A DNA stretch of 64,000 bases from Tomocerus qinae (Eukaryota > Arthropoda > Collembola > Entomobryomorpha > Tomoceridae), in NCBI GenBank assembly GCA_020055645.1, contig CM034549.1:24759930-24823929 (forward strand), read 5' to 3'. Every line of letters starts with the position of its first letter. Positions within the stretch are counted from its first letter, which is position 1. Position numbers and translations under genes: made by a program. Below are positions 29,501-60,984 of the stretch, piece after piece. The notes under the pieces were generated by a model. That model had not been told where the DNA came from. It was given only the letters and a program-made list of their open reading frames with translations, and made no database searches.

Positions 29501-32500
29501 ATAGAAGTAATCCACCGGTATAGGAAATACGCTACTCTTTGTTTGTTCGCTTGTGCTACGGGAGAATCTTCTGCAATGTTCTTTTCAGGCGTTACCCTAA
29601 AAGTATTTTCGATGAATCTTTTTCGTAAGGAAATATCAACGCAAAACAATTTTGGTATTTAGAATATACGTAAATTCCAGAATCAAATAGACCATTTTAT
29701 ACGTACATTCTAAGAATTTCGTAATAAACTATTCGTAACATTCTAAATTGGGGCACTTGCGATTGAACACGTTTGTGATACCACTCTTATCACTTCTAGT
29801 AATGGACTATGATTCAAATATTAAATTTTTCCAAATAAATGGTAAATATATAGTAAATTGTAATGAAAGGATATTGTTTCTCAAGTTCCGTGATGAGCTG
29901 CCTGGTCGACATAAAAATGATGTGCGTTAGAAGAAAATCGTCCAGAAACACATCTGTGTCATTGCCATTTGATTTGTCCATCCGAGTTTCCAACAAATAT
30001 TCCACCATTTTCAATGGACATCCTTCTATCACTGTGTATCTGAAATAAAAAAAGTATACCGAATTGTTTCTGATCGCTAGGAGTGGATTCTATTTTAATT
30101 TTACGAATTGAATGCGCTTGACCGAAGATTCAAGCCTCAGTTTTCAAAATTCATGGATCTTAACACTTTATTTGCAAGTTATACATTTGTACATTCCTGC
30201 TCAATCAATACAAAACTAAAAAACTAACTACGGACGAGTTGCAAAAGCTTTCTAAGTTTCAACACATTCCACTATCCATACACAAGGTCATTTTAGAGAA
30301 ATTAATTGAGTCATTTTTATAAACTTTTTATTTATAAACTCGAAAATTGCACCAGCAAATTAAATCGTACAGTGCAGTTTCAGTTTCACTGTGGGGAATT
30401 AAATGAACCCTTGGTGATATGGCATTGAATACATTCGTTTCATAGCCTCTAAGTATATTGAGATGGGATAGACCACTAAGGAAATGCATTCACATATATG
30501 ACGTCAATATAAGCTGAAGCTATAGATGGATTAAAAATGAAAGATGTATGATACCAAGAAGATGGTCTTTGATAGTAACTTCGACACGTCAGAGGAAAGC
30601 GTAACGCAGTTTGTCTCGGAGAAAGCAATGCTTCTTAAAATAGCCATTCCCCCAAGTTGGATGGAATAAACTAGACATACTTAGCTACTGGTTGAGAGAT
30701 GTCAAGATGTAGGTGTAGGTAGTCATGCACACATACATAGGTATCGATTAAACGTGAGTTGCCATCAGCCTAACCTGGTCTCCTGCTACGATACCAAATG
30801 TAGCATCACTGAAACTGGCAGGCGAAACGATTCGAGAAAGAGACAAAACTAAATACAATCATACGGAAACAGTTATGAGTTATGTTCTATTCCACCTGTA
30901 AAATACACTGTCTCGTCGGAACTTCGATGTGCAAAGTGCATCAATCGATAACAAATACTTCACCTAACAGTACACTACGTAGGTACCTTCAATCATTAAA
31001 CTACTATTTCCTTAACACTATTCCTTAATATCTTGATACAAAAAATATTGGTATAAATAAATGCTATTTTCAAATGGAAGTTTCTAGATTCGCCATTTAA
31101 GTGATTAATAATTAGCCAGTCATGCTCATATCGGAACAAAATGGAAACAAGTATTATTTCCCACAAAAGAATTCGCATGAAATTTCTTCAACAAATGAAA
31201 GTAGCATTTGTGGGGGCAATTATTCATGGCTATATAGCTACCTACACAATTTCTACATACCTATATTCACTTCCGAGAATAAATTCTATAATGGCAATAC
31301 CAAACTATCTTCAAGAAGCTTTCAAAAATTTCTTCCTTCTTGTTTCAAGAACATTTCCAAACAAGTAACCATATTACATTAGTGCGCTAATAATATTTGC
31401 GGGAGTATTTTGTTGTATGTTTCACCAAAATCTGGGACAGACATGTATGTAGTAGGCATACACTACAGAATCTAGTAACATTCTCAAAACGGAAAAAACA
31501 AAGTCGAGTAGAGTAGAGCAAAGGTTAAGGAAGTTAATATATTTGATTTTGCCAAAGGAAGCTCTGAGAAATAGCTCAAGTAGCCAATTACTTAAGATGA
31601 AAAGAGTAGCATAGGTAATTGACATGAAAATAAAGCATCACTTTGCAAAGGTATTCTTTAACAGTAGGAATTTTTCTTACTTGAAGTTTGAGTTTGCAGA
31701 ACGACAGGTCTCCATAACAAGGACATCTTCTCCATGTTCTTTGAGTCGAACAATATTGGCCTCGACATCCCGCAGAATTCGATTAAAGTCACTCTTAGAA
31801 ACTTGAAGGAATTGTGTTCCATTTTCTCCAGCGACAATTGTGGCAGCCCTATAAGTGAACAGAGCTCGGTGTACAAAAGACAAAGTTGGCAAAACAGTAA
31901 AAGGTAAACGAAACTACGAGCAAATATTGTACACATTCACGAGAATCCAAATCAACGTAATATTACTGATGTATGTCTTTTTTGCTTATAGTAAGTAAAT
32001 AAGTGCAAATTTCAAATATAAATTAATAGAAACTTGACACGTACACGTTATATTATAGGGAACTCTTAGAAATGTATTTGTAAATGCATGTCGCACACAA
32101 ACAGACCGAAAAGGCCTTGCTTTTGAAACATATGACAATGCGGAGAAAGGATTCGCTCTGAGTCAAAAGAGCGTGAATTTCTCTTTTGATATGTTGATAC
32201 ATATTGCTGGATGGTATTACACTTTTCTCAAGTTTAATAAGGAAGGTGAAAAGATCAATATATACTACATAATGGTACACGTGTAGGTGTAAGTTGGCGT
32301 ATTAGGAACTTTGGTCGTTTTGTGTATTTTTGGTTCAAGCTTTACTTTGTCAGTCGAAAGACTTATGAATACTCGGGACTATATAGTTTGGTGTTTGTTT
32401 AGCCTGATCCTTACATCATGGCTAGGTCTCCATTTCTAGTGCAACAAGTGCAGGCAAAGAAATACTTATACCCTATGAAATATAATATACCTGGGAGCAT

Positions 32501-33223
32501 CATTGACAAGAGCCAGCTGTCCAAATTCATCTCCTTCATGAAGTGTGGTCACAGTTCCTTTTCCCCGAATTACCACATGAACCCATCCTTTGAGAATGAT
32601 ATACCAAGTATCCCCCACGTCCCCTTGTTCGAAAACTAAGTAAAAATAATAAGCCTAGATAAAAGACAAATCTGGTACAGTAATAATCTTCCTAGCCCAC
32701 GCAAATACACGTAAAGCAAAGTCAAAATCAGATTTTACCAATTTCTCCCTTCTGAAAATTGTCTTGGACAAATATGACTGCGGCGAGTTCCCTTTTCACT
32801 GAGTTTGATAAATGATTAAGAGCTTTAATGTGAACAAGTTCTTCGTAGAGTCGTTCTAATTCCTCCGCACTTCGCTCTCGACCGGCTTTCCTCAGAATAT
32901 CCGAAATGATTTTCTCATCGCTGGTGGGAGATTCACTCTGAAAATCAATGGACGCATTGATATCTTCCTCGTCGTCACTCTCCTCCGACAATCTTCCTTC
33001 GATCTGAAATGACTCCTGTTCCGCAAGTGTTTTTAACCGCGGAGTCGTCGAAACTGATTTTCTTGTTCCCAAATCTATTTTCTCACAGTCGATTGACGCT
33101 CGGTAGACACTGTATCGATCAGGACGAATATCCTTCCCATCTTTACAGACAAAACCACACTATAATACACTTCCAAATTCCCAATTTAAAATTCAATATC
33201 TATGAACTTACCTTGTAAATCAT
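26551..33223 (-). CDS. Epac: EPAC-type cAMP-regulated Rap guanine nucleotide exchange factor, copy 1
   Basis: Thirteen exons: 33223-33212, 33159-32739, 32635-32491, 31848-31681, 30039-29875, 29602-29455, 29055-28827, 28537-28391, 28165-28065, 27808-27680, 27492-27305, 27217-26832, 26726-26551. They join without a break to 804 residues. Domains: cyclic-nucleotide binding (about 75-245; [28 protein letters not shown]), REM (about 249-350; [10 protein letters not shown]), a linker, Ras-association (about 430-512; [19 protein letters not shown]) and CDC25-type GEF (about 525-770; [48 protein letters not shown]). cAMP binding would release the GEF domain to load Rap with GTP. The proposed start, MIYK, is a four-codon exon; no DEP domain or first cAMP site is found upstream. 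One intron is AT-AC (29874-29603) and one GC-AG (29454-29056). About ten extra residues (around [11 protein letters not shown]) sit in the GEF hairpin region. Confidence 0.93.
29056..29454 (-). other. GC-AG intron in EPAC copy 1
   Basis: The REM exon ends AAG|GCAAGT, the classical non-canonical GC donor with an otherwise perfect match. The intron ends at a normal AG before GAAGCGTATAAC. The junction is phase 0, as at the homologous GT donor of copy 2 (CAG|GTAAAA). Confidence 0.85.
29603..29874 (-). other. U12-type AT-AC intron in EPAC copy 1
   Basis: Between the two REM exons there is no GT donor before the stop. The junction reads CA|ATATCCTTT, the minor-spliceosome 5' consensus. A TTTCCTTAC branch-like element lies at 29633-29625 and the intron ends in AC|TTTTAGGG. 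Joining there keeps phase 2 and gives LEKHFRV, which lines up with copy 2. The branch-to-acceptor spacing (about 23 nt) is a little long for this class. An AG acceptor 6 nt downstream is also in phase. Confidence 0.8.
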
Positions 33224-38832: not shown

Positions 38833-41800
38833 TCAGAGACGCTTAGGTTCGTGCTTCTGCGAGAGTTGATTAAGAACTCTTTGATTGTCTATACAACGAA
38901 GACACCGAATGTACGTGCGGACTTCCGCCTCGTTTCGCGGAGTAGGAGGAGGAATGTCTGAAAGAAATCAAAGAAACATAATAAGAAAATCTCAGTCACC
39001 TAAGTCATAAGTAGCTCGCATCGCCATACATCATTAGCAAAAGGTCAAGACTTAACAGGAATTACATATCATCAGACACCCGACAAACATCCATATAATA
39101 ATAATGAGTTTTCAAGAGTAGCTTACTAAGAGAGCGACTCCTGGCGTGTTTCATGGTTCTCAGAGTCTGTGCCAGCATGTGCATTTTTTCAAAGTTGACC
39201 AGTCCGTCTGTATATGTCTTGTTGCCCTCGTGAGTGAAAGTCATGTCTTTAAGAATTAGGGGCATGAAGGGAATGATGGGAGGATTTAGTTTGTTAAGAG
39301 CCAGTCTATACGCTCGATGATTTCTCGATGGCTCTATAAACGTCTCGAATTCCGCAAATACTTTTCGTGACTTGGACGGTAGCCGCTCCCACGTTTGATT
39401 CATTCTTGTAACGGCCACATTCCCCAAACCCATCACAATCGCGAAAAATGCATTCAGGTTCTGATATTCTTTACAACTGCAAACATTAAAATCCTTTAAT
39501 ATTATCTTTAATAATTAGGAGATTCCAATGACGTAACCGGATATTACGCACGTACTCTCTCCATGTTGTTGTATCTATTTCACGTAGCATAGACAAGACA
39601 ATGTGTACAGTACTATCTGTTACTTGTTTCGGGGAAGATAAATTATTTACCTGGCGGAGCATAAAGCATAATATTTGAGAGATAGAGCAATGACATCATA
39701 GACTTGTTTATGTTAGTAGTTAGAGTCAAAGGAGCTTAGAACAGCAGAGTTGGAATTGTTTGGTATGAGTGGAGAAAACACCACCAAGGAACAATAACAA
39801 TGAAATATGTGACTATGAATGTGCGTACGTTCCTTCGTGGGTTATCGTAAGCTAAGTGAGTAGTATAGTTTCCCTCCTCTGACTTCATTTCATTCGACTA
39901 AAGATCGATTCCAATCTCATCTCCTATAGCTTACATAACAAAACAGAGTTATAGGTGATCGTGAGCTATCACTCCATTCCTACTCCGAAAGCATGCTAAC
40001 CGACTTTGACAATCCTCTATTTGTATAGGTAAACTCACAACTTCGTATAAACTATATAGACGAGAGTTGAACTTAACTAGCAGACGCTTCGCCTTTCATC
40101 TCGATAGGAGATAAGAGGACGTGCTTTCTCTCCCATTTGCATGATAATTGTTTCCCTGACACAGCCACAAAACTGAACTGAACAGAGTTTGACGATCGTG
40201 GCAATTTACATAAAATTCACCAATCTGTACACGACAAGACAAGACACACCAATGCAATGCAGGCAAGCAGTAGTCTGTTTAGTTTGCACATCACAATGCA
40301 TCCCTAAACCTACTATTAAATTACCAACATATTATTAGTGCACACAAATATCAACAGAGAAACTACCAGCAACTTTCTCTGTACAACATTCCCCAATCAT
40401 AAATAGGTAGTGTGAACAGAGTCAGCTTTTCTATATGCTGGTTTGAAACGAATCTCATCCTATGCACTTTCTATCCGTAGACTTTCACTTTATGATTACA
40501 TCTCTATTGTATCAGGTACTAGAGCAGAAATGTGTCATAGTTCATACAAACATCGTATAAATTTTGCTTTCCCCCATCACAGCTTCGCCTTTAGTCTATT
40601 CATAAAGCGTACCAGCTTCAAATGAAGCATTTCTGAAGTTCAATGTTGACTTTGTTCTCATAATTTACAAGGAGAACCTTGTGGAAACTATAAACTATAA
40701 CCAAAAGCTATAAATTCGGGACATAAAAAATGAACTGCTATTATATAGAACATAAATGCTTGTGATTAGCACAGAAACGCAGTATTTGCAAATTTGAAAA
40801 TGAATCGTCAGACTACATGCCTCTCTAGTGACTTAGTAGGTCACACAACAAGCAGTGGGATAATAAACCAGGCTCAATACCCCTAAAAACTAAACTTGTA
40901 AATAAAAGAGTAGTTTTCTAAAAGTCAAATAAAGAGACTTGACTGAGCTGATGAACAAGTGGCCCTGGCCGTTGTTGGAATTGGTTTTGCAGTAATGACC
41001 GTATAAAGTCCCACTTGATATTCCCTCCTTCCAGTTCCAACTACCACTTGTGTTAGACTAGAGCGAGAGCTATAAACATTATAAGACATGTACATAGCCA
41101 CCATCCATTCCCTTTACTCCGGTTTACTCAAGCCCAGTCAATTCAAGTCAACTTACACCAACTCAGTGCACAATGCACATAGACTTGACTACAAACATAC
41201 GTCCTTTGGTCTGCTTGCCGTCTCCATATTCTCCTCTCATCCGTCTCATATTTCCTTCCCAGCGTTAATACACAACAGAAATAGTAGGCAAACCCAACGA
41301 AGGATCTATAATTCACTCAACTCACTGAATTCTACCCAATTGCTATGTACACAAGGGTATAGGAAGGATGGAAATTCTTTTGTGTAACCTACCTGTAGCT
41401 ACACATCTTTGTGCTTTGCGATACTATGATTGTACAATAAATAAATTTATCTACATGACATACTGACAAAAGAGGAAAAGTGCCTAAAAGTAGCTAACTG
41501 TATGCTACTTCGTAATCCAGGACACAAAGAGGAAAGTGTTCTGTAATGTATCCGGAGCATTAAAATACACACAACATCCTAAGCAATTAGATCAGCTCTT
41601 GTTACCAGTTACAAGTTGAGTGTTCTAGTAAAACGACCTGAGTGCTTGCCTACTGTCCTCCGCTTCCTTGTTATCATACTCCAGTAAGCAACAAACAATT
41701 CTCTCTTTACTTAGTGCTACATAATAAATAATAGTATCCTATTTATCTTGTGCTAACCCAAAAGAAAGTGACATTGAAATTGGCAGACAAATCTGTTAGG

Positions 41801-44800
41801 GAAAGAAAACGCGGCTTTCTTTACTCAGGGAAAGGCGGATAGTTTTCCATTAAAACTAAGTCGCTTCTGCTATTTATAAAATGGGAGTTGTACACATTTA
41901 AAGACATACAAGTCTCAGGCCTATACTTACAACAACGTATGTTCCTACTATATCACATTTCATTGTTAACTCAGGAGCAATTTGATAATATCAAATTATA
42001 CGAGGGAAAAGTGCGAGGAAATAAGCGGAGAAAGTTATCAAAAATTCTCGAAGAGAGTCAAGTCACGCTGAGTACTTAGACAGAAACATTGTGCTTGGTA
42101 TTGGATGAGAAGAGTCGTCTGTCGTCTCTGCTGTGAAGTCAAAGTCAACTCTAGTGGCCCATATAGGAGGGGAAGGTAAAAGATTCATGACAGAGTTTAT
42201 TCGTTGCAGTAATAGCTTCTGCATGTGTACAGACAGCTTGACTTGACTTCCCGTAATGTACTTTACTCATAGTTCACTTCTTTCTCCAATTCCCCATTCC
42301 TTTCTCCTCCACACAGTATAACACTAACGATAAGTAAAGAGGTGAGCTAAGCCACTGAGGCACTGCAAGGTAAAGGTAGGAGCTCCATGGGGAAAACAGC
42401 TACATTTCGCCACGGGATACTCAAGGCTTGACTAAAAGAGAGGAAGGCTACCTACGGATAGCAACCAGCACATCACTCTCTCTCTTATACATGCCTCAGC
42501 CTGTTCTGTTGTGGTCTCGTCTCTTCTACTCTCTGTCTCCTTCTTTTGGCTACGAGAATAGTACACCGACGAAACTACGATCGATTGACCCATAAACAAG
42601 GATTACAACTGGGACCTAGACAGCACAGATGAAAAACTACCCGGGGACATGCACCAACAACCAAACTGACGAAATACAAAACCGATCACCCTTGTCTCCA
42701 CTCTTAATAACTACAGCCCAAACTCCGCCACTACAGTTTTCTTTATTCCACTTTTTGACTTTCACCCGCATCAAACACAAACACATAGGAGAAGAACATA
42801 GTTTGTGCAGTTGCTCTGTCTGAGTCCGTGGGTGACAATGTCATTACTAAAAGAGTGGATCAGGGCTCTTGACGTAATTTACCCTCGATTCCACTCTTGT
42901 GTCTGACCTTCGTAATAACTCAAATATATCGCTACCTTCAAGCCGCCTTAATGCTGTCATTGTCATTGAGATACATCTAATAGAACATTATTTACTTTTA
43001 TAACAACTCTGCATGGAGTCTTAAATATAGAGTAAACTGGTTCATGCTAGCTCTATTCAGACGTTATCCACGCCCACCTTATAATTAGGACCATTCTTAT
43101 TCTTACTACTTTGACTACCTGGGTACATTCATATATAGCACACAATTACTTTACTGCAAATATGTTATCAATATTTATGGTTTTCTCTTAGATTCAAGTA
43201 CTAGTGTTATATTCTGAGAATGTACATAGTATGATGTATATTGCACTATGAAATGACTACAGCTCCATTTATAGCCATTTCATTGAATCTAGTATGATTA
43301 CACTCTGGTTCTTTTTTGGTGCTTTGTACTACTACAGAGTGTATGTTGGAGATTTACAGTTGAAGTAGTAGAGCTTTCTATTATACTTATAGCCTCAAGA
43401 TACTATCATTTTTATAGTAAAGTTTGTACTATACAGACACAGTTTGGATGTGCAATGAAAGCAATAAAGATTTCCAGAGAAAACTTTAGCTTTCCCAGTA
43501 CGTGATGCACTTTGCTTTAGATTTTAATACATACAAGAAAAACTTACTATGCAGCCAACTTCAGAAACTTTCGGATGAGAGAAACTCGTTTGCTCAGATT
43601 AGTAGTAAGACAGATTTCGGTAGCAACCCAAAATTGTATTTCGTTGAATCGACGAATCTGGACGTCCAAATTGGAAGTTATTTTTCGAAAATGATGCCGC
43701 CCGAATGTATTGTAAATCAACTCGTACTATAACAAATCCAAGAAATTAGATTTTCACTAGATATACTTTCACTACATACTTTCACAACGCAATACTAAAA
43801 ACAAAATAAAGACAAAGACTATCTTTTTTAAAAGTTACAAATTGTAAAGATGTTCAAGAGTTCTTAACTTAAATTCTTGGTATGCTACAAAAGTACTTTT
43901 TCCAACTCTCTTGACACAATGTTACATCATAATACAAGCAGATTCAAAAGCCCTTATATTTTTGTAATTTTGTATTCCCTGGAGAAAGAAATAAATTAAT
44001 AGCAGTACACTTACCTCATGAACACATTTAAATAAGCTCCAGTCCAAGACGGTCATATGATAAGCGAGTTCTCTTGTGCTAAAAATCTCCAAATCGGAAT
44101 CTAATCCTTCTGTTGGTCGTTCTTGCTCGGGCAAACAAGTCTGTGGAAACCGTATTTATTAAATTAAAGCACTAAATGATATACCTATCAAGGTATAGGA
44201 AGCTAAATCCTATAAATAGGTACCTACTAATCTGTATATTAGGTACATAAATGCTATGCTGGTTGTTTAAAACGCAGTGAAGCAGGTAATTACTTAGCCG
44301 AAATTAGATGACTCACCAGAGCGTCTAAATGATCTTTGAGCGAGATGAATATTCGTCCATTAAGACTAAGGGATGTTGGTATACTGACGTCAGTATCTTT
44401 AAATACAACTTTTTCACCTGTGCAATCCAAACAAGAAATATATTATTGTAACCCACAGTCTTATAACTTCATTTCACCAAGGCCTCAAGAAACACAAGTT
44501 TAAGTCCTTGCAAGTGATTACTATAAATTGCACGCCAACTTTAATTACGGTTAATTACAACAGCTAAATTGCAAAAACCAGAGGCTAAACTACATCCTAT
44601 AAACTAGAAGCACGTAGTAGTACAAGTATACTTTGTTTCGTACCTGAAGATTTGAGTTCCACCAAAACGAGATCATCATGTTTAAGTTTCAGTTTATCTG
44701 CAGCGACATGTTTTAAAGCCTCTGCGGATGTATTGAGTGGGAAGCGAAGAGTACAATAGGTATGGTCGGCACAATAAACTCGGAATATAACTGAAAAGAC

Positions 44801-47800
44801 ACGATAACAAAATGCAATAAAGAAAATTCCAATCTCTGCTACTTACTAGAATTCAATTCGTATCGGCTGAATGCAATGTCGTTACACATTTGTAGCTGTA
44901 ATGCTCACAAAAAAACCTTACAAACAAATGGTTCGATTCAAAAATAGCTAAAAGTACCTAGCTGCGGTTTTTATATTATTGCATTTCACCGAATTTTCAG
45001 TAAAAAGGGAAATAGAAAAGCCATGCCTCCAAGTAAAAGTTGAGAAAGTAAATTTGTAATTACTGTCTCTTAGATCTTGGTCTTCTATAGAAATAAGGGC
45101 AATTTGAGCTGAAAGCCTACTGGGCGATGGCTATAAAATTGCATTATTTTATAATATTATCGGTAAATACACGCTAGGTCAACTAAGGTCATATGTTCCT
45201 AACACTGACTCTTTATGCCATTTTCCCTGAAATAAAAGCCATGAAATGTAATACGTACTTACACTTCCATTTGAGCACGTATTCAATTATATAGTACACC
45301 ATTCCCTCTTTAAAAATGACTACAGTAGTGAGAGCAGAAGTTCGCTGGGAAGAAAAAAGACTTCTAGATCTAATTTTAAGACTGCCATCCAATCCAGTCA
45401 CTCACATCAGTCTTCTTTCTCAAATCAACTCACAAATCAATACTCTTTTCTCATGCCTTACTGACGTCGTAAGTAAAACTACGGCCAACTTACTTTTCTA
45501 AGTACGCACAATCATATTTCATATCCACAATTCCCTATCCCTCCTTTGACAGCCTTCAATAGTATCATTCTCTACTACACCACTACAATATTTATATACT
45601 ACTTCATTCAAAGACGTGTACAGTATGGAACGAAATGTGCTGCTTTAGTGCTTTCTCTTTCCTTATGCTAACTCCGTGTTAAACTTTCACCACTATAAAA
45701 TTATTTCTCCAATAATTTCAGGAATTTGTGAACGTACTGAAGTGTATATCGAGTTAGGAAGGAAGGAGAAAGTACCATGTTACTCTTTTCCACGTCCTAC
45801 TGTAGTGTAATATGATCTATAATCATATCCATTAGTCAAACACAACTCTTTTAAAGATTTGCAGCTCGTTAGACCGTAATATCCCGACTGAAGTGCATAC
45901 GGAGAAAATCTGCCGAAATGCTAAGACCTACCCATCTGTGTAAGCATTATTTCCCATCCTTATCAAGTATATTTCAAAGTAATAGCACTCGGTATCATTT
46001 GAAAGAGCTTATCATGCATGAGTGGTATTATAATTAACATTATCAAATGTGTTTTATTATTGGGAAGTTTATTACATCCATGATTGTAGCTCATTCCAAG
46101 TAGTCAGATGATTATTGCCAATAGTAATAACAAGTATCAGTGGAGTAGAAAGTGATGCGTATTTGTAATTTGGACTCACACGTGCATGGTGCACTACATT
46201 CATTTCCTACTCCAATTACTCCGTTGTATTACGATAACTAAAGTAGATATCTATGAGCACGTATTCGTATTATCACGAAATAACTTTCTCCGACGCTTTC
46301 CCTCTGGGTAATACTTTTCGTTGTATTTTAGTTTTCAGATCCCAGATAAAGTTAGTCTTCCATGAGGCAGAAAGATTGCTCTTTCTATTCTATACTAATG
46401 TGAAAGCCCAATCGAACTTTCCCTCATCTCTCCACACCTTTTCTTCCGCACGCAATTGGATAATCATGATCAGACGGTCAAGGGGAGCACGGGGAAAGTC
46501 ATGACATGGAGTGACTAGTGAGTGAGAGGCAACTGCTGGAGTGGAAAAACACATAAATCTAATTTAGAAAAGAAAGGATGGTAATGGTAAGTAGTAAGTA
46601 CTATAATAGCCCTCTGCTCATTTTCGTTTTTCTTCACGGTAGTCTAGAGACCGAGGGAAATGGTCTGAGACTCTCTTAAGTATTGAACACAGGCTCCCAG
46701 TCACGGTAAGCACAAATACTGACAAAAGCAATGTTGCTCCCTAACATGTTTCAATCAAATTTTATTACGTGCAGATATCCATCAGCTTGGCATTTAGAAC
46801 CTATACGGTAAGTAAGCTGCTCTATTTTCGACTCCACACTCTCATCCCCTAAGTATTATTTCCAAAGAGAAATTGGACCAATTTATGCTGTGCATCCAAT
46901 AATATTGCGTTATAATGTTAGTATAAATGCTCGACCTGTATTTATCTACTTGGGTACTCTGTCAAGCATAAAGAGACTAACAAACTTAGGTTACCATAAT
47001 TTTGAAATATCAGGAGCATTTGATTTCAAAGAACAAAGCAACTAGTGATGAGATTATTTCACTTCCATCTCTACTAAATATTATTATAATGTTGTAGTAA
47101 CTGATATTATGTATATCTGCTGAAGTGCTATTACATATTCGAGGAGATCACAGAGAAACTCAATTCATTATCTACTTATGGACAAGAGCATTACTTTCAT
47201 ATAGGCCACGGCCTTCATACAAATAGTTCTTTTGATGTTCTGGGGTCGCTAAGCGCATTATGTATTTAAGGATAACTACTCCCTGTATACATCCACAACA
47301 CAATTTAACAATCGTCAAGTTAACTTTGAATTTTGAATCAATCAGCGAGTCACAACTGACTTCTTCAGAACTCATTACAGTCAGTTTAGCTTGAGGGTTC
47401 TAATTGGGGATCGTATCGTGGGTCTTGCAATCAAGCAATTTATATCGGATAGGCAACTTCAGCTACAAAATACTAATTATTGTAATCTCTATCTGTTTTT
47501 GGGTATCATGAGAACATTGCATTCAGTACAAGTGAATATTCTATCAAATGTAGTAAAATATTGCAGACTCACTATCATCAGTTGGTCTCATTACACATCT
47601 TCTGGCATAAAGACCCTCGTTGTTTTCATCCATTGCATTGGGATTGCCTGGAGCTCCGAAGAGACTTACTGGTTGCCCGGACGGAGGCAATTTCCATTTC
47701 TGACCGGAAACAGAGGAAGTTTCCTCCGAATAAGCTCGTCGCATGTCATTTACTTGAAGCATTAGATTCACTTCGTCTCTCAATGTCCCATAAGTGCTAC

Positions 47801-50800
47801 TTTCTTTTTGAACTTCTTCAAAGAGTTCCTACAAATCAAAGCCAAAGTTACTACAGTAGGTACCTCACATGATTGCTTTGCTGTTCTTTTACGATTTTCT
47901 TGGTATTCATTCAAGGAATCTTAGGTAAACCATAATCGAATAGAAAATCAGAATTGTGTGCTCTACTATATTTTTTTGTGTATCAAGGCTATCATCGAAT
48001 GACTATTGTTGAAAATGTAGACATATTTTTGTGAAAATAATAATACTATAGAGGGAGGTCTACGGAAAGTTAAGCTTAATGATACTTGGAAATTAAGTGT
48101 GGGTAAATCTTATTAATTTAAACGAAATATTAATTAGATATTTAAGATATAATAATCGTCAAATAATTGTCGGTTTTACCTGTAGGAAGGTATGTGTGAC
48201 TTGTTCTTCAAAAACAGGATCCCCAATCGTGGTCACCCATCTATGGACAAATTGAACGACTCGTCTTTTACACGCTAGTAGGAATTCTCTGTCTTGACAC
48301 GTTGACTCGACTCTACAAGTGCACTGGAGTTAAGGAAATGACCCAAAAATGCCTAACTTTTCATTTCTAATGTCATCAATATAATAAGGATAATATTACT
48401 AGAAATTGTTCCCATTGCATTAACATTTACATTTGTATTGAATATCAAACGGTTTATAATGTCTGGCGTGATAATTATGATGAGGGGAGAATGTTCGGCA
48501 GAAGTATTCATTCAATCGATTTAATTTGAATTGAATAGACTAAGTAAATAAATTAATGACGTAAGTAGTGAAGTAAAGGAAGCGAATAATAAAGAGAATG
48601 GATGAGAAAGGAATCCCTGGAGATTCTTTTAAAGATTGAATTGGATTGGACCGAAACGACTGCTGAACAAGAAAGATGCGGAAGATAGTGCACAAAGAAA
48701 TACAAAAGAGTCTTCTCCAGTGGTATACATAAGTATCACAGATATACAAGAACATCTTTTACCAGAGGGGAAATCAATGGGCATAGACTTCCTTCTGTTC
48801 GGCTATAATAGAGACAGACACTAATGCAATGCACCGTCTCTTCCTCGTCTACCGAGCTATTCTATTCATATTGAAATAAAATCCAATGCAAATGCATAAT
48901 ATGTGAAAGAAGACAGTTTCTTTCTCCTGATTTCATTGACAGTGAAATGAAGCTGAACGGAAGCTCCTTTCTTTGCTCTTTTCCCATATATCTATCATCT
49001 TTAAACCTCGTATTATCCTACAGTTACTTGTTACGCATATTTTTTATGTAAATTCCTAGAAGTCTACGTATCGCATTCGCATGAGTATTCCTTTCCAACA
49101 CTACTACTGTCTCTATTTCTATTCGTCGTTTGACAGGATAATATGATATCCTTTCCCTTTCTACTTTATTCACTTGACAGTCATTTCATTCTCTGACATC
49201 ACTATTTGCCATGAAACGACTCACTCCTTCACACTTTCAATTACTACCTTCTACTCCACTACACAATCACACAAAACTGCTATATATATACTTTGCATCG
49301 TTACACTTTCACAGGAAAACCTTCTTTCATACCGCTATCTACTTCTTTGTGCGATAACCACGCACACGAATGCCCGTTCTATCACTAATCGCAGATATGA
49401 ATAATAATGTCAAATTAACGTGTCCACTCTCCTGCCTACTGCCCTTTGAAACAATGACATTACAAATTACACAGAAACACAAAACTGATTATCCACAGGT
49501 TAGAGCCACTTTGCCTGTTATAACTGTGAATCCTGTCCTGTCTTTCTCATTTAATCTAATTAAGTATGACACTTCTATTTTCACTTTTAATGGTTGATAC
49601 AAATGGGGCCAACACACCTGAATCATACATTCTTTGCCTAAATTCAAAGGTGCATCGTTTGGGAGAGTTAGACTAAAAATATCCTGAGGTTTGCAACGTA
49701 ACTCTTTTACGACACCGAAAAGAGAACCTTTTGGGTGAACATCTTTCAAAATTAAACCTTGTCCAATAGGTCTCGATAAAAATTCAACCCCATTCATTTT
49801 CAATAATACTATTATTGATAACCAGTTGTTGAAACCTTGTTATAGGGATCCATCACTCTTTTTCATGACCTAACAGGGGTAAATGTCAATTTCTGGCAAT
49901 AAAGTTTCAATTTAATGCAGGAATTGATTTTATGTCAGTAGGTAACTTAAAAAATCGTGTATGGAAAGGATATTGTCTAGTAAGTTCGGTGAGAAGTTGA
50001 TGAATGGGCATGAAGATGATGTGAGTGATAAGAAAGTCATCGAGAAAGAGATCAGTATCGCCAGCAGCTGAAGCTCGACGTCCACTTCCATCATACGAAG
50101 ATCGATCTCTACCATCTAAACGTGTTTCCAGTAAATGCTCGAGCATTTTGGCAGGACTTCCAGCCATGACGCTGTATCTGAAATTGAAACATTCAAGCTC
50201 ATTGAAATTACACATCCTGAATGTTATTGATCTAAAATACATTTTTACAGTTTTTGTGGCACATACAAGTAAATCTGTCAATGAAATTGGGTCAATGTTG
50301 TACAGAAATGTTATTTTATTGTAGGAAGGAAGAGAAGATACATTGTAACAAAGACATAATCAAGTATTTCAAATTGACAAGACCAACTAGGGTAGGGCAG
50401 AGGGAAAGTCGAGGAGGAAAATAAACAAGAAAGACATATGTGGACTAAGGTAGAAGATGTTATCTAATGTATAATGTATGCTGCATTTTTTTGAAAAGAA
50501 ATGCAGATGCTTCCATTGCATAGCGTATTTTCCCACTCACTCGCTAACAGTCGATAAAGATATTTCAGGCCATACGTAACAAAGTAATAGCTACACATGA
50601 ATAGCTTTTGTTAAAATTACCATACATGATACTACATGTGAGGTTGTAATGCATATACTCATGAAACTTTTCTAGTATGCATTAGAATTGAAATATAAGG
50701 GATAAGTACACTTCGTTTTCATTCTTGTGAAGAATGCAAAGTAACCCAGGAGCTATATTTTATTAAGTTGTGGGATATACTTATAAACATTAGGCAAGAG

Positions 50801-53800
50801 GAAGAAGTATGGTGAAACTACTCTTTTGTGGCGTGTGTAACATATTAGATGCTGAGTGAGTGAGTGAATATTTCAGTTTCACTACCTACCCTACCTACAA
50901 AGTAAGCTTTAGCAAATAAAGCATCCTACTCTTCAATATTTTATCCTGTCTACCATCTAGATACGGAGGGAAGGATGATAGGAAGTAGGAAGTCATATTA
51001 TTGGCGTCTTGGGGCTGAAAACCTATATCTTTCACTGTCTTCTCTCAAGAAACTGCAAACATACTACAGACTGCTCACTATTCTGTTGCTGTATGGATGA
51101 AAATGAGGATGGATGATGACATATAAGAAGGTAAATACAATATTTCCAGCGCATAAGCACTACAAAGATAGAGCTTCATTTCAATGTCACTACTCAAACT
51201 TGTTACAACACTTTTCTTCTACACAATAACCAGCCACGCAGAGGGAAATGTCACAAATGCTTTATAAAACTTAATGCATTAATTACAAAATCTCTCCTCG
51301 CTTCTGTGATCTGTGCTATTTGATTTTATGATATGCAAATATACATTTCTATTTCTGGTTAGAGTAGATTGGTTAACTTTTTAATTTCAGGCCTCTAAAG
51401 GTCGAAGCACTGAAAATCATTACAAAAACGCTTATTTAAAGCTTCTTATTTCAGAAACGGTAATTTAAATGTCAAAATTGTATCCATGCATTTTATGTAG
51501 CGGGTGTACCAATAGGATCATTGAGTCTTAACCACCCACTTCCCTTTAGAAATAATATGCTGGTGGCCTTCGCCAAAATGGAGTTCAATTGGACAGAGAT
51601 TGTTCTAAAAATCAGATGGGATTGAACATGTAGATGAAACGCCAGGATGTAAAAGGGGAATCAGAGGTAATACTGGTGAGGGATCATGGAGTATGGAGTC
51701 ACGTAGTATGGAGTAAGGAAAGGGGACAACTAAGTGATCATTGTCTCTCGGTCCTTGGTTCGTCCCTGGATTTATATCACTCGTCTTTAGATATTATGAG
51801 CACTAGCTCCGTGAAACCGAAAACAAGTACAAATTATCAATTAATGTAACATTAACTAGCAACCGTGCTTATGGCATCTTTAATCCCACTGTGGAAACAA
51901 TTCATGTACAAATGTTTGCATTATTTTGAAATTTCTAACGAGATACATACATTTAGAAGTCAGTTACGTTGTAATTCGTAAACACAATAATATGCTCCAA
52001 ACAGGTTTTTAGATCAAAAGTAGCTAGAGTCTTCAATGATACGATGATACCTAATTAAAACTGAATAGAAATGGTAAATGCTGTAAGAATTTCCTGAAGG
52101 GTAAAGATGTTGTATTTATCCATGCTCTAAGAAACTTAAGCACCTACCATACTTAAGGATAATTGTAATGCGATGCCCGTTCGTCCGCTCACATGGAATA
52201 CATAGTTGCCAATTAACACCAGAAGAGAAATACGATGCATCAGAGCGTTTATGATCATACCAAGAAAAGAATGGCGTGCATGGTTTATCACGCGGACATC
52301 CTAATTCTAAGAAATTAGAATCAACGATTCTATAGTCAGTGAGTGGTGCTCTCTAAGACACGTGATAACTAAGATGCAATTACTTTTGTGTGTATACCAA
52401 CATAGTCTTTTGCTTTCATGACAATTTTTAGTTGTACAAATACTATACAGATAGCCTTTCCAGGATTGGCAATGTGGAAATGGAAGAAGGGTCTATTTTT
52501 TACCAAAATAAAAACGACTTACTTGAAATGTGAATAGGGATTGGCATTGTTGGCAGAGATTTTCTCCAGAACGAGTACATCTTGGCCGTGTTCTTTGAGT
52601 CGAACAGTGTTTGCTTCAACATCTCTCAGAATTCTATTGAAGTCATCCTTGTCCACTCGAAGAAAATGACAATTATCTTCTCGGAGAACTATTGTGGCAG
52701 CTCTATAAAAATAAAACCGAAAACTTTTAGTACTGCTATTTAACCAAACTTTCACCCTTTGAAATGATAATTTTGACTTTATCATTTGTTTTATTTATAA
52801 CGTATAAGTATAACCTAGTACATAGACATCAACAGAAATGAAATCTCTTGGAGAAACAAGAAGAATGAAGGAATGTAAAGAAATTAAAAATATGTGCACG
52901 TATTTAGTAGTACGGATGTTTTTAATTGTTTTCTTTGTAAATACTTGACGAAAAGTGTAAACCATGTGAATAATAGAGTATAACATATTTTTGTACATCA
53001 ACCTATAAATTCTTACTACAACTTCAATGGGTTCTAGTCCTTGAAGTGAAACTTATGAAATTGAGTTTCAGGTTCTATTTGGATTGTTGAATCAGCAAAT
53101 TGCGTCTTGGCGTCTCAATTATATGTTTTTCTGTTTCTAACTTTCAGCAGATTGTTTTGTCTCGCTTGTTGTAATACAATACCTAAGTATGAGTGAAAAG
53201 AAAAACAAAAGACCAAGTTACCAGAAAAGTTCAACTCCAATATTATTATTAACAAAACATCCGTTTCCTTTCGTTTTTGCTGCCCAGAGTATTTTTCGGT
53301 ATTCCACCAAGTCGTTAGGCTTAGGTTAATGGCCATTAGGATTCTAGTATCATTAAAAGCGTAGTAGATATGTTCATATAATTTATATCTATTCCTTTAG
53401 CTGTAATTCAATAGTTAATGGCTAGATTGCGACTTGCGACATTCAAAGTCAAAATTATTATCCAGGCTATATATTTCGGTCTTGTACGGAAACCTTAAGA
53501 TTTGCCCTTTTCCAGAGTAGGTATATGTTGCCTGAAACTTCTGGACAGAAATCTTTTCATTTTGGGTTTCCCTTTATTTACTACTTGATGTTATAAACAA
53601 ACCAAAAGTAATAGGAATCTGTAGATATGCTTCTGCAGAACGAACAAAATTTATATCTGAAAGGAAGTTAGGTGACTCTCTCTACAATCAAACTGCAGTT
53701 CAGAAAATGCTTGTAATGTATCCAAGTACTGCTCTCGAACAAGTTATTGAAAGCAAACTAACTACGAAAAATGAAAAGAGTGAATGCTAACACCAACCTG

Positions 53801-56800
53801 CATTCAATGGACAAAATGCAAGAAACTTCTTCAATTCAAAGTTATAGATAACAAAATAAAGAAAACAAGATCCAACTGCAATATACTAGCACTCTGCACC
53901 GCGAGCAAAAAGTAAATCAAATAGAAAATCTCTGCTTTATGGGAATTCTACGAAATTAAATTACAACTACACCTTAGAACCTCGATTATGCCCCGTATAA
54001 TACTACAAGCAAAAATTCCTGCCGTGTTATATACCAAAGTTCTAATTTAATAACATAATGCCCAATATTGGCTACTGGAGACGGAGACACGACAAATTTT
54101 GTGACACAAAATATACAGGCAATACAATATTTAGTGAATGTGGGAAATCAAACATTAGACAATGGTAATAATCCCATCGAAATATGTGCAGCAGAGTAAT
54201 AGTATTACTGCACTACTAAGTATTTATAGAACTGTATGAATTGTATTGTTCAGCAGTTTGTGAGTACCAAATTAATGCAATTAGAAACTAAGAACCAGAT
54301 GAATGAAGAAGGACAAGGAATTCTTTTGTGCTGCTACAGCATTTATTTTCCTTTTCTCCTGCTGGTTTGTAATATTCATGCTTTTGTAGTCCATGTAATA
54401 ATGCTAACGGAGAAACGCTGTTTACATACCCAAAGGCTTACTTTCTCCATTTATATTTATTTTCCATTCTAAACTTGCACCATGTCATATCTATTTACTC
54501 ACAAAGCTATATAATGCATATATCTTCAATCTCTTCGGGAAAAACAATATTGGAGAAAGTTTATCATTGTTAAAACCTACGACTACAGCGTTACAAGTAA
54601 TTACAATGTACCTTTGTAGTACCAGTAACCACAATGACCGCAGGGATACTGCATGCAGGGCAGTTGATGTTGAAATTTTCTTTGTAGCATAATAAATATC
54701 CTATACTTAATTCAAAGATATTTAACTTCAGAATAAAGTTGTCTATAGATTAACATTGAAAGACGAAAACAAATGCGCAGATTCTCTATTAACATTGGCG
54801 AAATTAAAATATAAATCATTGTGTCAACATTCTACCAAAAATGGTTTTGTAATACGTAGTAAATGTTACTGCGCAATGATTGAATTGTCTACTTTTAAGC
54901 ACACGACAATGTACTGCCATTTTGTTACGTTTTTAGTAAAATGCATGTTGAATACATTTTTATTTATTCGTAACCTAGTTTAGAACGTAAGAAATGGGTT
55001 CTGTAGTAAGTAAGGCTCACCATTGATTTTAATCCACCTAAGGCGAAAAGTAAATGAGTGTGCTGTAGTGCCTATTCTTCATAATAATGAGTGGATGATT
55101 ATGAATCATGAATGTGTAGGTATTATGTTGATGTACTGTAGAGATAGTAGGCAATTCATTGTGGTAACTCTGTTATTGGGATGGATGTCCTTGTGTATTG
55201 TATTTCGCAGAAATTCGTGAGATTCAAGACTTATATAGCATGCATTATTGTGTTCATTATTTACATTTAGTTCATCAAGTGTAAAGAACTATTGTTCCTT
55301 CTTTAGACTAGAAATCTACTTTAATATCTCATGAAAAGAAGCTCTACTTTTATTATTTCCATTCTGCTCTCTATCAGGTTTTGTTGAATATTTAAATTCA
55401 ACAAGACAGAATGGAATAAACTTTGAATTTGTAATTCTTAGAGATAAGTAGCTGTACTTTGTAATTAATAGTTGTGACTATTCAATTCACTTCGCTTCTA
55501 TTCAATGGATGAATGAATAATAACGTTTAATAATCAATACTACCACAACAGCACTACATAACGCAATTAAAGAGGCTCTTTCATAGCGTGCAAAATTGAA
55601 ATAAGGGAAACTGGTTACTTTAATCTCCTTGCATACACTTAAATATGCTCAGTGGTTCAGTTCGCTTTATCGACTACGCTTATTCATACTAGATACTAGA
55701 ACTCCTTTGTTTTGTATTTCAATTCAACAATAAATGCTTGTTCTGGGAATGCTGTATCGTAATAGTTAAGACTTGTACGTAAGCCAATATTTCTCATTAT
55801 CATTAAGTCTCATTCACAATTTTCAAGAGCGCAAAAAACAATAACGAATCTTAATCTTACTGCCGTAGTAGACTTTTACTTCGCTCTCCTTTAATTGTAC
55901 TACTAAGTTTACAAATGTTACTACAAATTATTTGTATTTGCATCTAACGAAGAATTGTAGAAAAAAACAGAGGTATTTAATAGGTAGAGGAGAATTTCTA
56001 TGGTAGGATTACTTAACAATTCTAATACTGAGTACAAAGAATACTTGTCTGAGTATCTACTTACCCCTGAATCTTCTGGAAAAAATGTAATACAAAATTC
56101 GTGAAGAATAATGCTATTTCTGAACATCTCATCTAACAATAGATATAAAAATAGAAATGTTTCACAAGAGAAATACAATAAGACTTTCTGCTGTTCATCT
56201 GTATTACGCTACTACTTGGACAGATAATATTACGGCTATAATATCAAGTTTCCTGTATAGAATTCCCATATAATAATAAGGTACATAAGATACAGTTTTA
56301 GACTTTGCAAAAAGCATTATTTCGTAAGGTTCAAGTAACTCTGAGTCTCAGATGTCAATTTAGTTTACAGAATACAACTAATTCAACGGTTGTGGTTGTA
56401 CCCACATCTACATCCACATTTTTGTATTTTCATATTGAAAAATGCTAAATATGCAGGAAAATCCCAATTACAAAAGTAAGGACGGGTTTTTAAGCTTGAA
56501 AGATTTTACATCAGTTTCCACTCTGAACGGATCTGACTTAAATTGGTATAAATTGAGTTGTGTTTCTTCTTGTGAAAGTTTGTTCATTAATGAAATATGA
56601 GGAAGGTTGCTATTATACTATCTGACTATCATATTAAATGTCTTTTCCCATCAAATGAAACTGAACTGAGATCACATCCGCCATAGACCTTCAAAAACTG
56701 AAAACCTGTCTCTTAACTTCACTTCCATTTAATAAGAGATAGAAAAGAAGATATCCGGTTATCGGGTGATGAAACTTGGAAGGACATACTGGTTACAATA

Positions 56801-59800
56801 TTATAACTTTCGCCAAAACTCTTACAAGGAATGGCCGACACATCACGCTCGCAGTAAGATACCACAGACAGTCAACTTTTATGACTAATTTCGGTGCGCT
56901 GATTTAATGGCCGAGTTTCACCCCAGTACTCAGTACTGTACTTGCACTATATGAAATACTCGAAGAAAGAACTACCGTAGTAAACCACAAAAACACCCGT
57001 TTAAATAGATGACCAAAATAATGACCGAAGACCCGGGAAAGAAAATTAAAATCTAGGCAGCCATGTAAAGTCGATATTTTCAGTGATAATTGGGACAAAT
57101 CTCCAAAAGGTATTTCAAAATCATTTAGATTCCAAAAACGGTTCAAGTATACTAATTAACTAATTAATTAACATTCATATAATATCTAATTACAATTTAC
57201 GCAATTGTTTTACATTACTTTTTTCTCCATTTAGATTTTGGCTTTGTTACGTATACTAATAGTGTTAATAAGGATGATACTGCGATAATGGCACTTATAA
57301 GGTTGACTTTGTAACATTACATAACAAAATCTCCCTTGTATAATATTTTCTGTGTTTATGCATTAGAGGTAGTCATTAAACATGAGATAAGTGGATGCTT
57401 TCATTCTTGTCATACTGCGAGATGCATTATGAAGGAGATAGAAATAGATAAAGTTAGAGAGATCTCCCGCAGATGTGACAAGAGTAGTGAAGTGAATTTG
57501 ACGGAGTATAATATATTGTCTTGAACAAAAGACAACTGACTGGCTGTCATTATAGTAGAAGCACATAGTAAGGCAGCAATCAACGAGTCAGTCGTCAGTC
57601 TGCCTGTTCATCAATTCCTAAGGATTCCCTGCAGGAAACCACAGTTGACAATCAGGGAACTTCATACTAACTACCTACTTAGCCAACCTTCAAACAACTC
57701 TATGTTCTCTATTCACACGACAAATACATACCTACAGTGAATTGTACTCTTTGTACAAGTGCGGTTCTGAAGTACGACGAGATTTACACACAGTCCTACC
57801 GTCGTGTACATTTTGACAATATTATCTTTTTGGAGGTTGTCCCTATATCGACAGTAAATAAACTATAAAATGTATATAGAGCTACTTATGGTTCACAGGT
57901 TGATAAAGGAAATGAATTCAAGTAATGGGATGGGAGTTAGGGAGAAAGAAATAATAAAACGGAGGTAATAGAGTACTTTATATACACATTGGCTATATCT
58001 GACCTTGTATTTATAGTCCGTGCACCCTTTCTCTATTTATTGCAGATACCTGTAACAGGTAGGATGAGATGGGTGAGATTCATACCTATGGAATTAATGA
58101 TACAATATACATAATTCTTAAGTAACGACTGGTCTAAGCATGAGTAACTATAACAAGTCTCTCTCTTGGTAGGAATATGTAAGTTAAAACTAAAATAAAA
58201 GGAAGGTTGATGCTGAGAAGGAGACAAGGACACTAAAAATATGTGGATGTAGCTTTTAGCCTCGTAACTACAAGTTGCTGGCTGATGTGATGGTTGCCAT
58301 TCAAGGTAATATAGATAGATGCATACAATTTTATATATACATTTGGTCGACTTATCTGTGACCAACCACTTATCCTAACAAATTCACTTACGAAGGTAGC
58401 CAATGTTATGCTTCTTTCTCCCAGAATGCTCTATTCTACTTTCCCCATCTCACTAAATGTTCCAGTTAAACGAGGCAGCTAGGAAAGTAAAAGAGCACTG
58501 AGTAAAAGTGTCTTCAAGTCCTATCTGGGCCTTGAGACTCCTATATCTTCAGTATTAAATTAAATTATACTCCATTTTATGATATAAATGGATGACTATC
58601 TCTCCTCCGCTACTAGACAACATGCAAGAAGAGGGGAAAACCTTTTTCCCAATTCAATAGAAACCAGAACTTTTACATATGTTCAGACACTCACAAGGAT
58701 CCTTTGCACAGCCACGTATATAGAAATCAACCAGAATAAGTATCAGTTATTATACGAACACTCATATCCTGAAATGCCTTTTCGTGATAAAAAAAATGCA
58801 AAGATTTGGGAAAATGCTCTAGACATTTTGGCATACGTTGCTCATAAATTTTCCACTAGAACATCTCGTTTAAGCTCCTGACTGCCATCATACCAACCTA
58901 AGATGAGTGCTTGATAACATTGCGGATAGGAGCAAGAGGAAATCTTTTTAGAAGTATAACCAGATCTTTTTTCATAGCTAATCAAATCAAAAATGACAAA
59001 AGTCGAGAAGAGTGCTTAAGTCCTCGAGAGTCACGGTTACGTTTCTGTTTAGAAAAATATTTTCCAAGGATTGTAGCAAGCAGCCATTCTGGTTGTGTAA
59101 AATGTCTACTCCAAGTTTCCTCTCCAAAGAGATTGGCTAATAAGCTACCTACGCAAGCTCTACTAAAATATCCATGAATATTCATAGGGACATGTCTCAA
59201 TGTCTCCACCTGGATATTTCAAAATGCTCCTTTCATTTGATGCTATCTACAAGAGAATGAATAACAATAACTCTGTAGAAATCTAGCTCCTTGTAGCTAA
59301 AGAGGACACAAACGAGTAATTTACTTGAATTAGGAAACATCTTAAATTATTCAACGCATTATCTTCTTTTGCTCCATAAGAGGATATTCTGTTAGAGACA
59401 GTTCAGTCGTAAATACGTAATAGGCACAACGCTATAGAACGTTTACTGCAACGTTGTGACAAATTAAGATGAGACGACAGCCAGGGGCCTATAATTCTGA
59501 GATTTCATTTCGTCTAAAAGCTTTTTTCTATCGTATAATTTGTCATTGTATGCTTTTCTGCTTGAAAATTGAGAGTTCAGCAGAGTATATTTACTGTTAA
59601 TAATTAAAGATAATTGTCTTACCTTGGAGCATCGTTGACTAAGGCTAGTTTTCCGAAGTCGTCACCTTCGTAGAGGGATGTGACAGTCCCTTTCCCTCGT
59701 ATTACGACGTTAACTGATCCTTTGAGAATGATGTACCAGCTTTTACCTTCGTCTCCTTGGTGGAACACTTGAAATTAAGAAAAGTTAATTACCAGCATGT

Positions 59801-60306
59801 ACGTGTAATTAGGTCACAAACACAATTTTGTCTATTGTCTCCTGTGAAAATGTGCTACTCATTTAGAGCGAATAAATAGGGAGATAAAAAGCCTATTGTC
59901 TAATGTACAACTTAGCATGATTATATCCTAGAGCAGAGACATTAAAGATTGAAGTCTTACAAATGGTTCCGTTCGTAGGGTGAGCTTCGAATACGATGAC
60001 TCCAGCAAGTTCTCTTTTAACCGAATTAGAAAGATGAGCTAGAGCTTTAATATGGAGTAACTCCTCGTAAATCATCTCAAGGTCGTCTGTTGTTCTCTCG
60101 TAGGAAGGCTTTCTAAGAATAAGGCGCATGATAGCATCAGGAGCTCTTTGAGCTAAGTAGCCCAGCACTTCAGAGCATTTTGTGTCTGCTTCCCGTTCAT
60201 CGTCCGGACTGGGAAGTCCTCGTGACCACGATCGACTCGACAATTCACTCTCAGCGTCTATCGTGAATCGGTAGAAGATATACTTGTCTCGAAACGGATG
60301 CTCCAT
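38833..60306 (-). CDS. Epac: EPAC-type cAMP-regulated Rap guanine nucleotide exchange factor, copy 2
   Basis: Exons: 60306-59961, 59767-59623, 52702-52523, 50177-49974, 48318-48180, 47828-47573, 44790-44644, 44417-44317, 44140-44015, 43726-43548, 39476-39127, 38957-38833; joined frame 765 residues. Order: [12 protein letters not shown] lead-in, cyclic-nucleotide binding (about 65-220; [28 protein letters not shown]), REM (about 225-335), linker, Ras-association (about 423-506), CDC25-type GEF (about 520-735; [48 protein letters not shown]) and the ending [14 protein letters not shown]. Close to vertebrate RAPGEF4. The ATG at 60306 is five codons before FRDKY and an acceptor (tatgtag|TGACG) precedes it, so upstream exons with DEP and a first cAMP site may lie beyond the window; I found none in 60307-64000. 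Introns are much longer than in copy 1. The REM exon has a private insertion containing RRAS. Confidence 0.94.
39477..43547 (-). other. Long intron of EPAC copy 2 inside the GEF domain (about 4.1 kb)
   Basis: It lies between the exons ending LKLAA and starting [11 protein letters not shown]; the matching intron in copy 1 is only 87 bp. No convincing nested gene on either strand. Confidence 0.7.
44791..47572 (-). other. Intron of EPAC copy 2 before the Ras-association domain (about 2.8 kb)
   Basis: The donor is A|GTGAGT after RPTDD and the acceptor is before [13 protein letters not shown] 67-codon ATG frame at 47375-47172 (-) is present but unsupported. Nothing else seen. Confidence 0.65.
48319..49973 (-). 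other. U12-type AT-AC intron in EPAC copy 2
   Basis: The donor is CA|ATATCCTTTCC and a perfect TTCCTTAAC branch site lies at 48337-48329, about 11 nt before the acceptor AC|TTGTAGAG. This is a textbook minor-spliceosome intron. The joined frame reads LTRHCRVEST, matching copy 1 (LEKHFRVTP) and the HYHAQ/HFHVE region of vertebrate EPACs as I recall it. The intron is 1,655 bp and contains a nested open frame at 49797-49489. Confidence 0.9.
49489..49797 (-). CDS. Unrecognised intronless small protein nested in the EPAC copy 2 AT-AC intron
   Basis: A continuous 102-codon frame runs from an ATG in good context (GAAAATGAATG) at 49797 to TAA at 49491-49489. The composition is balanced and protein-like, unlike most chance frames here: [20 protein letters not shown], then [19 protein letters not shown], then a beta-rich second half with [19 protein letters not shown]. 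No signal peptide or membrane segment is seen. It lies on the same strand as EPAC, inside the intron between the REM exons, and does not fit the EPAC frame as an exon. It may be a small independent gene, a retrocopy, or one exon of a larger nested gene. I do not recognise the family, and no AATAAA is evident just downstream. Confidence 0.5.
   Translation of the reverse strand: MNGVEFLSRPIGQGLILKDVHPKGSLFGVVKELRCKPQDIFSLTLPNDAPLNLGKECMIQVCWPHLYQPLKVKIEVSYLIRLNEKDRTGFTVITGKVALTCG
50178..52522 (-). other. Intron of EPAC copy 2 between the cAMP-binding and REM domains (about 2.3 kb)
   Basis: GT-AG intron with the junction in a Lys codon (AA|A), as in copy 1. No gene or repeat recognised inside. 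Confidence 0.65.
52703..59622 (-). other. Long intron of EPAC copy 2 (about 6.9 kb)
   Basis: It splits the cyclic-nucleotide-binding domain exactly at the PR|AATI position, as the far shorter intron in copy 1 does (642 bp). No exon or confident gene seen inside. Overlapping frames on both strands at 58588-59209 are the most coding-like noise here and may be a decayed element. Confidence 0.7.
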
Positions 60307-60984
60307 CGTCACTACATAATCCATATACAAATACAACATTAAAAGGCTACTATAAAATGCAAATTCAACATAATCATAGCAGATATATGCAATACATGTA
60401 TATACTTTTCCAGTGACAACAATAATATTACAGGTGCACGTCCAACTCATTGGTTGAGCATAATTTACATACAATAATTTACAGACAAACTGTTGTGCCT
60501 ACAGATACAGATGATGTAACATTATGATTTTAATAAACATATTTTCTATCACAATAAACAAAATACTACACTTCCTCAAAGCCTATAGGTATTGACTTTC
60601 TGGTGTAATACTACATATACGACCCAAATGGTATTTTATACCCTAAATACATTTTACTGCCCTATGGCACATTTAATCATGCACTCGTATTGCAATTAAG
60701 GCAACAGCTAAATTGATACTTTTACTATTTCACTTCTGGGAATCAAAATGGTCCTTTCTCATGCACTTATGATTTAAATTACAAATCATCCTCCGAAGCG
60801 ACTAATAAATTAGCAATTAATATATATGTATAAACTAAGGTCAATTAACATCACAGGCGCAATCTAAAAGCTCATCCACAAATAAGTGCCATTTCAACAC
60901 TCAACCCACTACACTTTTAATTACACCTACAGGCTAACTTGACATTTAAGTACTACGTAGAAGAGAAATTGACCAACACTTTAA

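Follow-up and report, generated by a model that had tools for sequence, protein, structure and literature searches.

Two tandem Epac genes of Tomocerus qinae with a predicted U12-type AT-AC intron in the REM domain

The window analysed here is a stretch of 64,000 nucleotides (nt) from Tomocerus qinae (assembly GCA_020055645.1, contig CM034549.1, positions 24,759,930 to 24,823,929). On its minus strand, a gene for a Rap exchange factor of the Epac type is present in two copies, arranged in tandem and collinear; their translated frames match exon by exon. Both genes very probably hold an ancient U12-type AT-AC intron that splits a histidine codon inside the REM (RasGEF_N) domain and is older than the duplication. 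Four lines of evidence make this reading the best available: the same codon and phase in both copies, a 10-base identity at the donor amid otherwise dissimilar introns, three of the four small nuclear RNAs (snRNAs) sought in the genome, and a second AT-AC intron in a PHB2-like gene. The proposed reading has five elements, the first four of which follow the established splicing pathway. (i) U11/U12 would recognize the 5' splice site ATATCCTTT and the branch site. (ii) U4atac/U6atac/U5 would then join. (iii) The donor would be attacked by the branch adenosine. (iv) Ligation of the exons at the AC acceptor would restore the REM domain. (v) As to origin, the intron would have resided in a single ancestral Epac gene and been copied along in a DNA-level tandem duplication. 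We infer from the sequence that splicing would proceed as drawn, by the minor spliceosome. Coordinates below are those of the window, and all Epac features lie on the minus strand.

The intron of copy 2 is the clearer of the two. It spans 48319..49973 (1655 nt, phase 2). The upstream exon (49974..50177) encodes the first part of the RasGEF_N/REM domain, its start being one of two AG candidates 6 nt apart, and the downstream exon (48180..48318) encodes the remainder. The first exon ends at 49974, the intron opens ATATCCTTTCC and closes TTCCTTAACTCCAGTGCAC, and the second exon resumes at 48318. The spliced frame is open and reads TRH/CRV across the junction (slash), a phase 2 join in which CA/T gives histidine. 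The 5' splice site ATATCCTTT occupies 49965..49973. The branch site TTCCTTAAC, taken through the AC acceptor, occupies 48319..48337 and matches TCCTTAAC, or TTCCTTRAY, a form of the U12-type branch consensus, at all nine positions. Its adenosine lies 11 nt from the intron end, a short spacing of the U12 type; a branch-to-acceptor optimum of 11–13 nt is given in PMC3584512.

The same intron hosts an open frame of 104 amino acids (49489-49803, minus strand), nested on the strand of the Epac gene; an AATAAA follows some 320 nt further on. It has one genomic copy, no Pfam match at an expectation value (E) of 1 and no solved-structure match at E 5; a single-sequence fold of 102 residues was uninformative (mean predicted local distance difference test score 34.6). 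It may be a small gene lying within the intron.

In copy 1 the intron is much shorter (29603..29874; 272 nt, phase 2). The exon upstream (29875..30039) ends at 29875, the intron opens ATATCCTTTCA and closes GAAAATAC, and the exon downstream (29455..29602) resumes at 29602. The spliced frame is again open, reading EKH/FRV with a phase 2 join in a histidine codon. The donor ATATCCTTT is intact at 29866..29874. The acceptor side is weaker. The motif TTCCTTAAC was not found near the copy 1 acceptor, and the best branch-like 9-mers in the last 50 nt of the intron are TTCCTTACG and TGCGTTGAT. Both match at seven of nine positions, and their A is 23 nt and 33 nt, respectively, from the end. A third, TTCATCGAA, matches at six of nine, 6 nt from the end. 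Of the two better candidates the nearer one, TTCCTTACG, is without the second A of the branch motif; taken through the AC acceptor it forms TTTCCTTACG (29603..29633), which we regard as a weak branch-site candidate. The preliminary description of this DNA, made from the letters alone, had proposed the copy 2 intron with its donor, its branch site 11 nt before the AC acceptor and a phase-preserving RH/CRV join, and had placed an identical donor at the equivalent codon of copy 1. Both proposals are confirmed. Its label of 'textbook' for both copies suits copy 2 and does not suit copy 1.

That the motifs and joins arose by chance is countered by several counts. Both donors agree at +1 to +8 with ATATCCTT, the U12-type AT-AC 5' splice site consensus as stated in PMC2831892. 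On the two strands of the window, ATATCCTTT occurs five times against 1.43 expected, a count reached in 3 of 100 shuffles, and two of these five occurrences coincide exactly with the ends of the two homologous exons. The combination of TTCCTTAAC with an AC after 4–14 nt gives three rows at two places against 0.39 expected, and none of 100 shuffles reaches three; the second place lies inside another intron of copy 1, away from that intron's acceptor. From +1 to +10 the two donors are identical at 10 of 10 bases, compared with 6, 4, 5, 4, 5, 5, 6 and 8 of 10 at eight other homologous introns. Once the first 10 nt are removed, the two introns show no residual likeness: their local alignment scores 22 against a shuffle mean of 23.3, and 76 of 100 shuffles reach 22. 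Because an identical 10-base donor stands in otherwise dissimilar introns, selection has probably preserved the donor since the duplication, which would be ancient enough for the remaining intron sequence to have been erased. The earlier proposal that the intron predates the duplication gains support from the same observations, taken with the shared codon and phase.

The protein record agrees with the joins. Across the junction, the joined REM proteins match EPAC2 (RAPGEF4) chains with E values of 7.4e-11 and 7.5e-11, and in both copies the junction histidine stands opposite an EPAC2 histidine with no gap at that point. On its own, the upstream exon of copy 2 scores 25.3 bits with Pfam RasGEF_N over profile positions 2-47, below the cut-off of 28.3 bits, and the downstream exon has no Pfam match at E 1. 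Joining them extends the match to 2-96 and lifts it above the cut-off, to 30.7 bits. Joined copy 1 scores 46.1 bits over 4-102. The AC acceptor thus restores the conserved frame in both copies.

Components of the minor spliceosome were sought in the genome with Rfam models. U12 (84.7 bits), U6atac (64.7 bits) and two U4atac loci exceed their cut-offs. The U12 copy contains GUAAGGAA and U6atac contains AAAGGA; the former is complementary to the branch motif, the latter to TCCTTT of the donor. U4atac-like loci number three (L002, C1:71232082; L003, C3:18601307; L004, C1:5030081). Two of these are the ones over the cut-off and have near-identical 5' parts; the third diverges in its 3' part, scores 43.9 bits, below the cut-off, and is perhaps a pseudogene. 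As a positive control, 11 Band_7 matches were considered in looking for the AT-AC intron that PMC2831892 lists for prohibitin-2. One of them, L023, has the structure KM/ATATCCTTTTC...TTCCTTAATGGTATATATAC/LGEA, with the donor after EGEAEAAKM and the acceptor before LGEAISQNPG. The intron (from 2301 onward) is AT-AC and phase 0, has the branch motif TTCCTTAAT and carries U12-type motifs. By its protein, we take this gene to be PHB2-like. Its intron indicates that AT-AC introns with U12-type motifs, as read from sequence, are present elsewhere in the genome. Together with the U12, U4atac and U6atac genes it supports the earlier suggestion that the minor spliceosome is used in this organism.

The two genes that carry the introns are bounded here by their outermost matched frames, which are not exact gene ends: 26554..33159 for copy 1 and 38836..60498 for copy 2. 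Searching the genome with a 223-residue piece of copy 2 gave 12 matches. Eight lie in the region of the window and are the two Epac copies; the other four cover the cyclic-nucleotide-binding part only (best E 1.8e-8) and are on different contigs or, on this contig, at a great distance. In this search the two copies are the only Epac genes of the genome. Two stretches were joined per copy, each across four introns (eight per copy), and all are open, with no stops; their splice sites were picked by homology between the copies and are not always the top score of a crude site model. A linker exon between the two stretches was spotted by eye in both copies and left outside the joined sequence. The cNMP-binding, RasGEF_N and RasGEF domains exceed Pfam cut-offs in the joined parts of both copies, and EPAC2 (RAPGEF4) chains are the top solved-structure match for all four joined parts. 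Against the best EPAC2 chains, copy 2 scores 390 bits and copy 1 291 bits in the N-terminal part, and 418 and 304 bits in the C-terminal part. Because its scores are higher in both, copy 2 is the more conserved copy over the two joined parts, though not for the REM segment alone. The REM proteins of the two copies are 47% identical. No Pfam match to DEP or RA domains was obtained at E 0.001 in the parts scanned, and DEP was given no further search; the C-terminal parts align to EPAC2 from their first residue, ahead of the RasGEF domain, which is compatible with an RA region. An EPAC phylogeny (PMC8534922) reports EPAC1 in no invertebrate. If the host is an invertebrate, the two tandem genes would stem from a duplication within the lineage and would not correspond to EPAC1 and EPAC2.

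Some further features were seen in passing. The copy 1 intron that follows the AT-AC one seems to be GC-AG (AAG/GCAAGT at 29454, minus strand); copy 2 has GT at 48179. Elsewhere in the window, 2635-3756 and 10736-11901 (minus strand) form another neighbouring pair of similar open frames, with stretches about 32-67% identical, and are probably a tandem duplication. At 16952-17631, strong matches among frames on both strands suggest a local array of repeats.

Several observations weigh against a minor intron in both genes. The first is the poor branch site of copy 1, with its 23 nt spacing against the 11–13 nt that PMC3584512 gives as an optimum, not as a defining limit. This lowers the standing of copy 1 as a model case; its donor, AC terminus and frame still hold. 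Some components of the machinery also failed to appear. U11 was not found in the genome with Rfam RF00548 at either E 0.001 or E 10, so that the snRNA search, set beforehand as a means of refutation, yielded U12, U4atac and U6atac above the Rfam cut-offs and left U11 out. Control runs of RF00548 on 14 bacterial or archaeal genomes (0 of 14 with matches at E 0.001, 2 of 14 with sub-cut-off matches at E 10) are uninformative here. The missing U11 says little, because fly U11 is reported to be highly divergent in a paper on ortholog losses (PMC2258195). A 20-letter pattern for the U11 5' end, allowed one mismatch, had a single match; no Sm site was seen around it by eye, and it was taken as chance. 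The minor-spliceosome proteins CENATAC/CCDC84 and PDCD7 (PF14968, PF16021) gave no matches and no first-look candidates, a result that is not evidence of absence.

The alternative that survives best refines the proposal of a shared minor intron and is nevertheless unlikely: the copy 1 intron may be decaying, its weak branch site making splicing inefficient, so that copy 1 would give little REM-containing protein or be on its way to loss. The branch motifs point this way (seven of nine at 23 or 33 nt in copy 1 against nine of nine at 11 nt in copy 2, the latter alone within the optimum of PMC3584512), as do the lower EPAC2 scores of copy 1 in both joined parts. Against decay, the donor of copy 1 is intact and its joined exons are open, with cNMP-binding, RasGEF_N and RasGEF domains above Pfam cut-offs; its RasGEF_N score exceeds that of copy 2, and the two REM segments fare alike against EPAC2. 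A related idea, which we hold to be less likely still, is that copy 1 drifted after the duplication to a suboptimal branch site, with no bulging second A, and that its expression is limited by the efficiency of the minor spliceosome. If so, what separates the Epac paralogues would be the strength of an intron in addition to their protein sequence.

It is very improbable that the intron arose, or became U12-type, independently of the Epac intron known from fly and human, although the published table leaves room for this: PMC2831892 states there an intron number only (11 of 16 in fly) and no codon. The codon position is nonetheless inferred to be the same, because only one AT-AC intron occurs among the nine homologous intron pairs compared here.

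Splicing of copy 2, and perhaps of copy 1, by the major spliceosome from nearby GT-AG sites, with the AT-AC motifs as coincidence or relics, can hardly be credited. Such joins do exist. Of the 46 open joins listed for copy 2, two are GT-AG (both from a donor at 49946) and four are GC-AG, and in copy 1 open joins start from a GT at 29910. The join from 49946 to the acceptor at 48313 replaces the residues HCR by ten others, whereas the AT-AC joins leave the junction histidine aligned without a gap. Of positions +3 to +6 of the 49946 donor (TAA/GTTACC), +4 alone agrees with the GT consensus, and copy 1 does not share this donor. The GT at 29910 lies within conserved coding sequence, and its use deletes REM residues. 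Ten identical AT-donor bases in otherwise dissimilar introns would be left unexplained. Over the limited ranges covered, which hold 46 open joins for copy 2 and 89 for copy 1, the major-spliceosome joins among those listed have a poorer donor, poorer conservation and a poorer fit to the protein. The same inventory qualifies what had been said of gene prediction. Copy 1 had been described as having no GT donor before a stop; this is true from 29874 to the stop after 29817, and untrue of the GT 36 nt upstream, in conserved coding sequence. Conventional gene callers had been expected to miss the intron. That expectation need not hold for copy 2, where the open GT-AG joins from the poor donor at 49946 could be misannotated; copy 1 offers no GT between the AT donor and the stop, only the one at 29910.

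A minor intron in Epac is already on record, and the present case is a further instance, real but ordinary. In Table 2 of PMC2831892 (row 17; 2010), intron 11 of 16 of fly Epac (CG3427) is AT-AC and U12-type, with a U12-type intron in human RAPGEF3; human counterparts are said there to retain the subtype. Fly Epac also stands among the genes with U12-type introns in Table 1 of PMC2952598. A limited search of the open literature found no account of minor introns in tandem Epac copies and none of RAPGEF4 with a U12-type intron; the main text of PMC7644725 makes no mention of Epac. With the window, the known minor intron gains one more species and a tandem pair of genes. Gene models for this genome could otherwise have a broken or misjoined REM domain, which the intron would put right. 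The two copies also let a strong branch site be compared with a weak one in nature, on a small scale, with the minor donor held constant.

Three known introns may be set beside those described here. The intron of fly Epac (CG3427/CG34392) and human RAPGEF3 shares the gene family, the AT-AC termini, the U12 class and the listing of one such intron; it differs in that the T. qinae intron occurs in two tandem copies, one with a weak branch site. The AT-AC intron of PHB2 / l(2)03709 (PMC2831892, Table 2 row 16) has donor and branch motifs of the same kind and a matching intron in this genome, and unlike the phase 2 Epac introns it lies in a different gene with a phase 0 join. U2-type AT-AC introns, of the sodium-channel type in PMC2831892, likewise have AT-AC termini. 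They carry G at donor position +5 according to the same source, whereas both Epac introns have C at +5 within a full ATATCCTTT.
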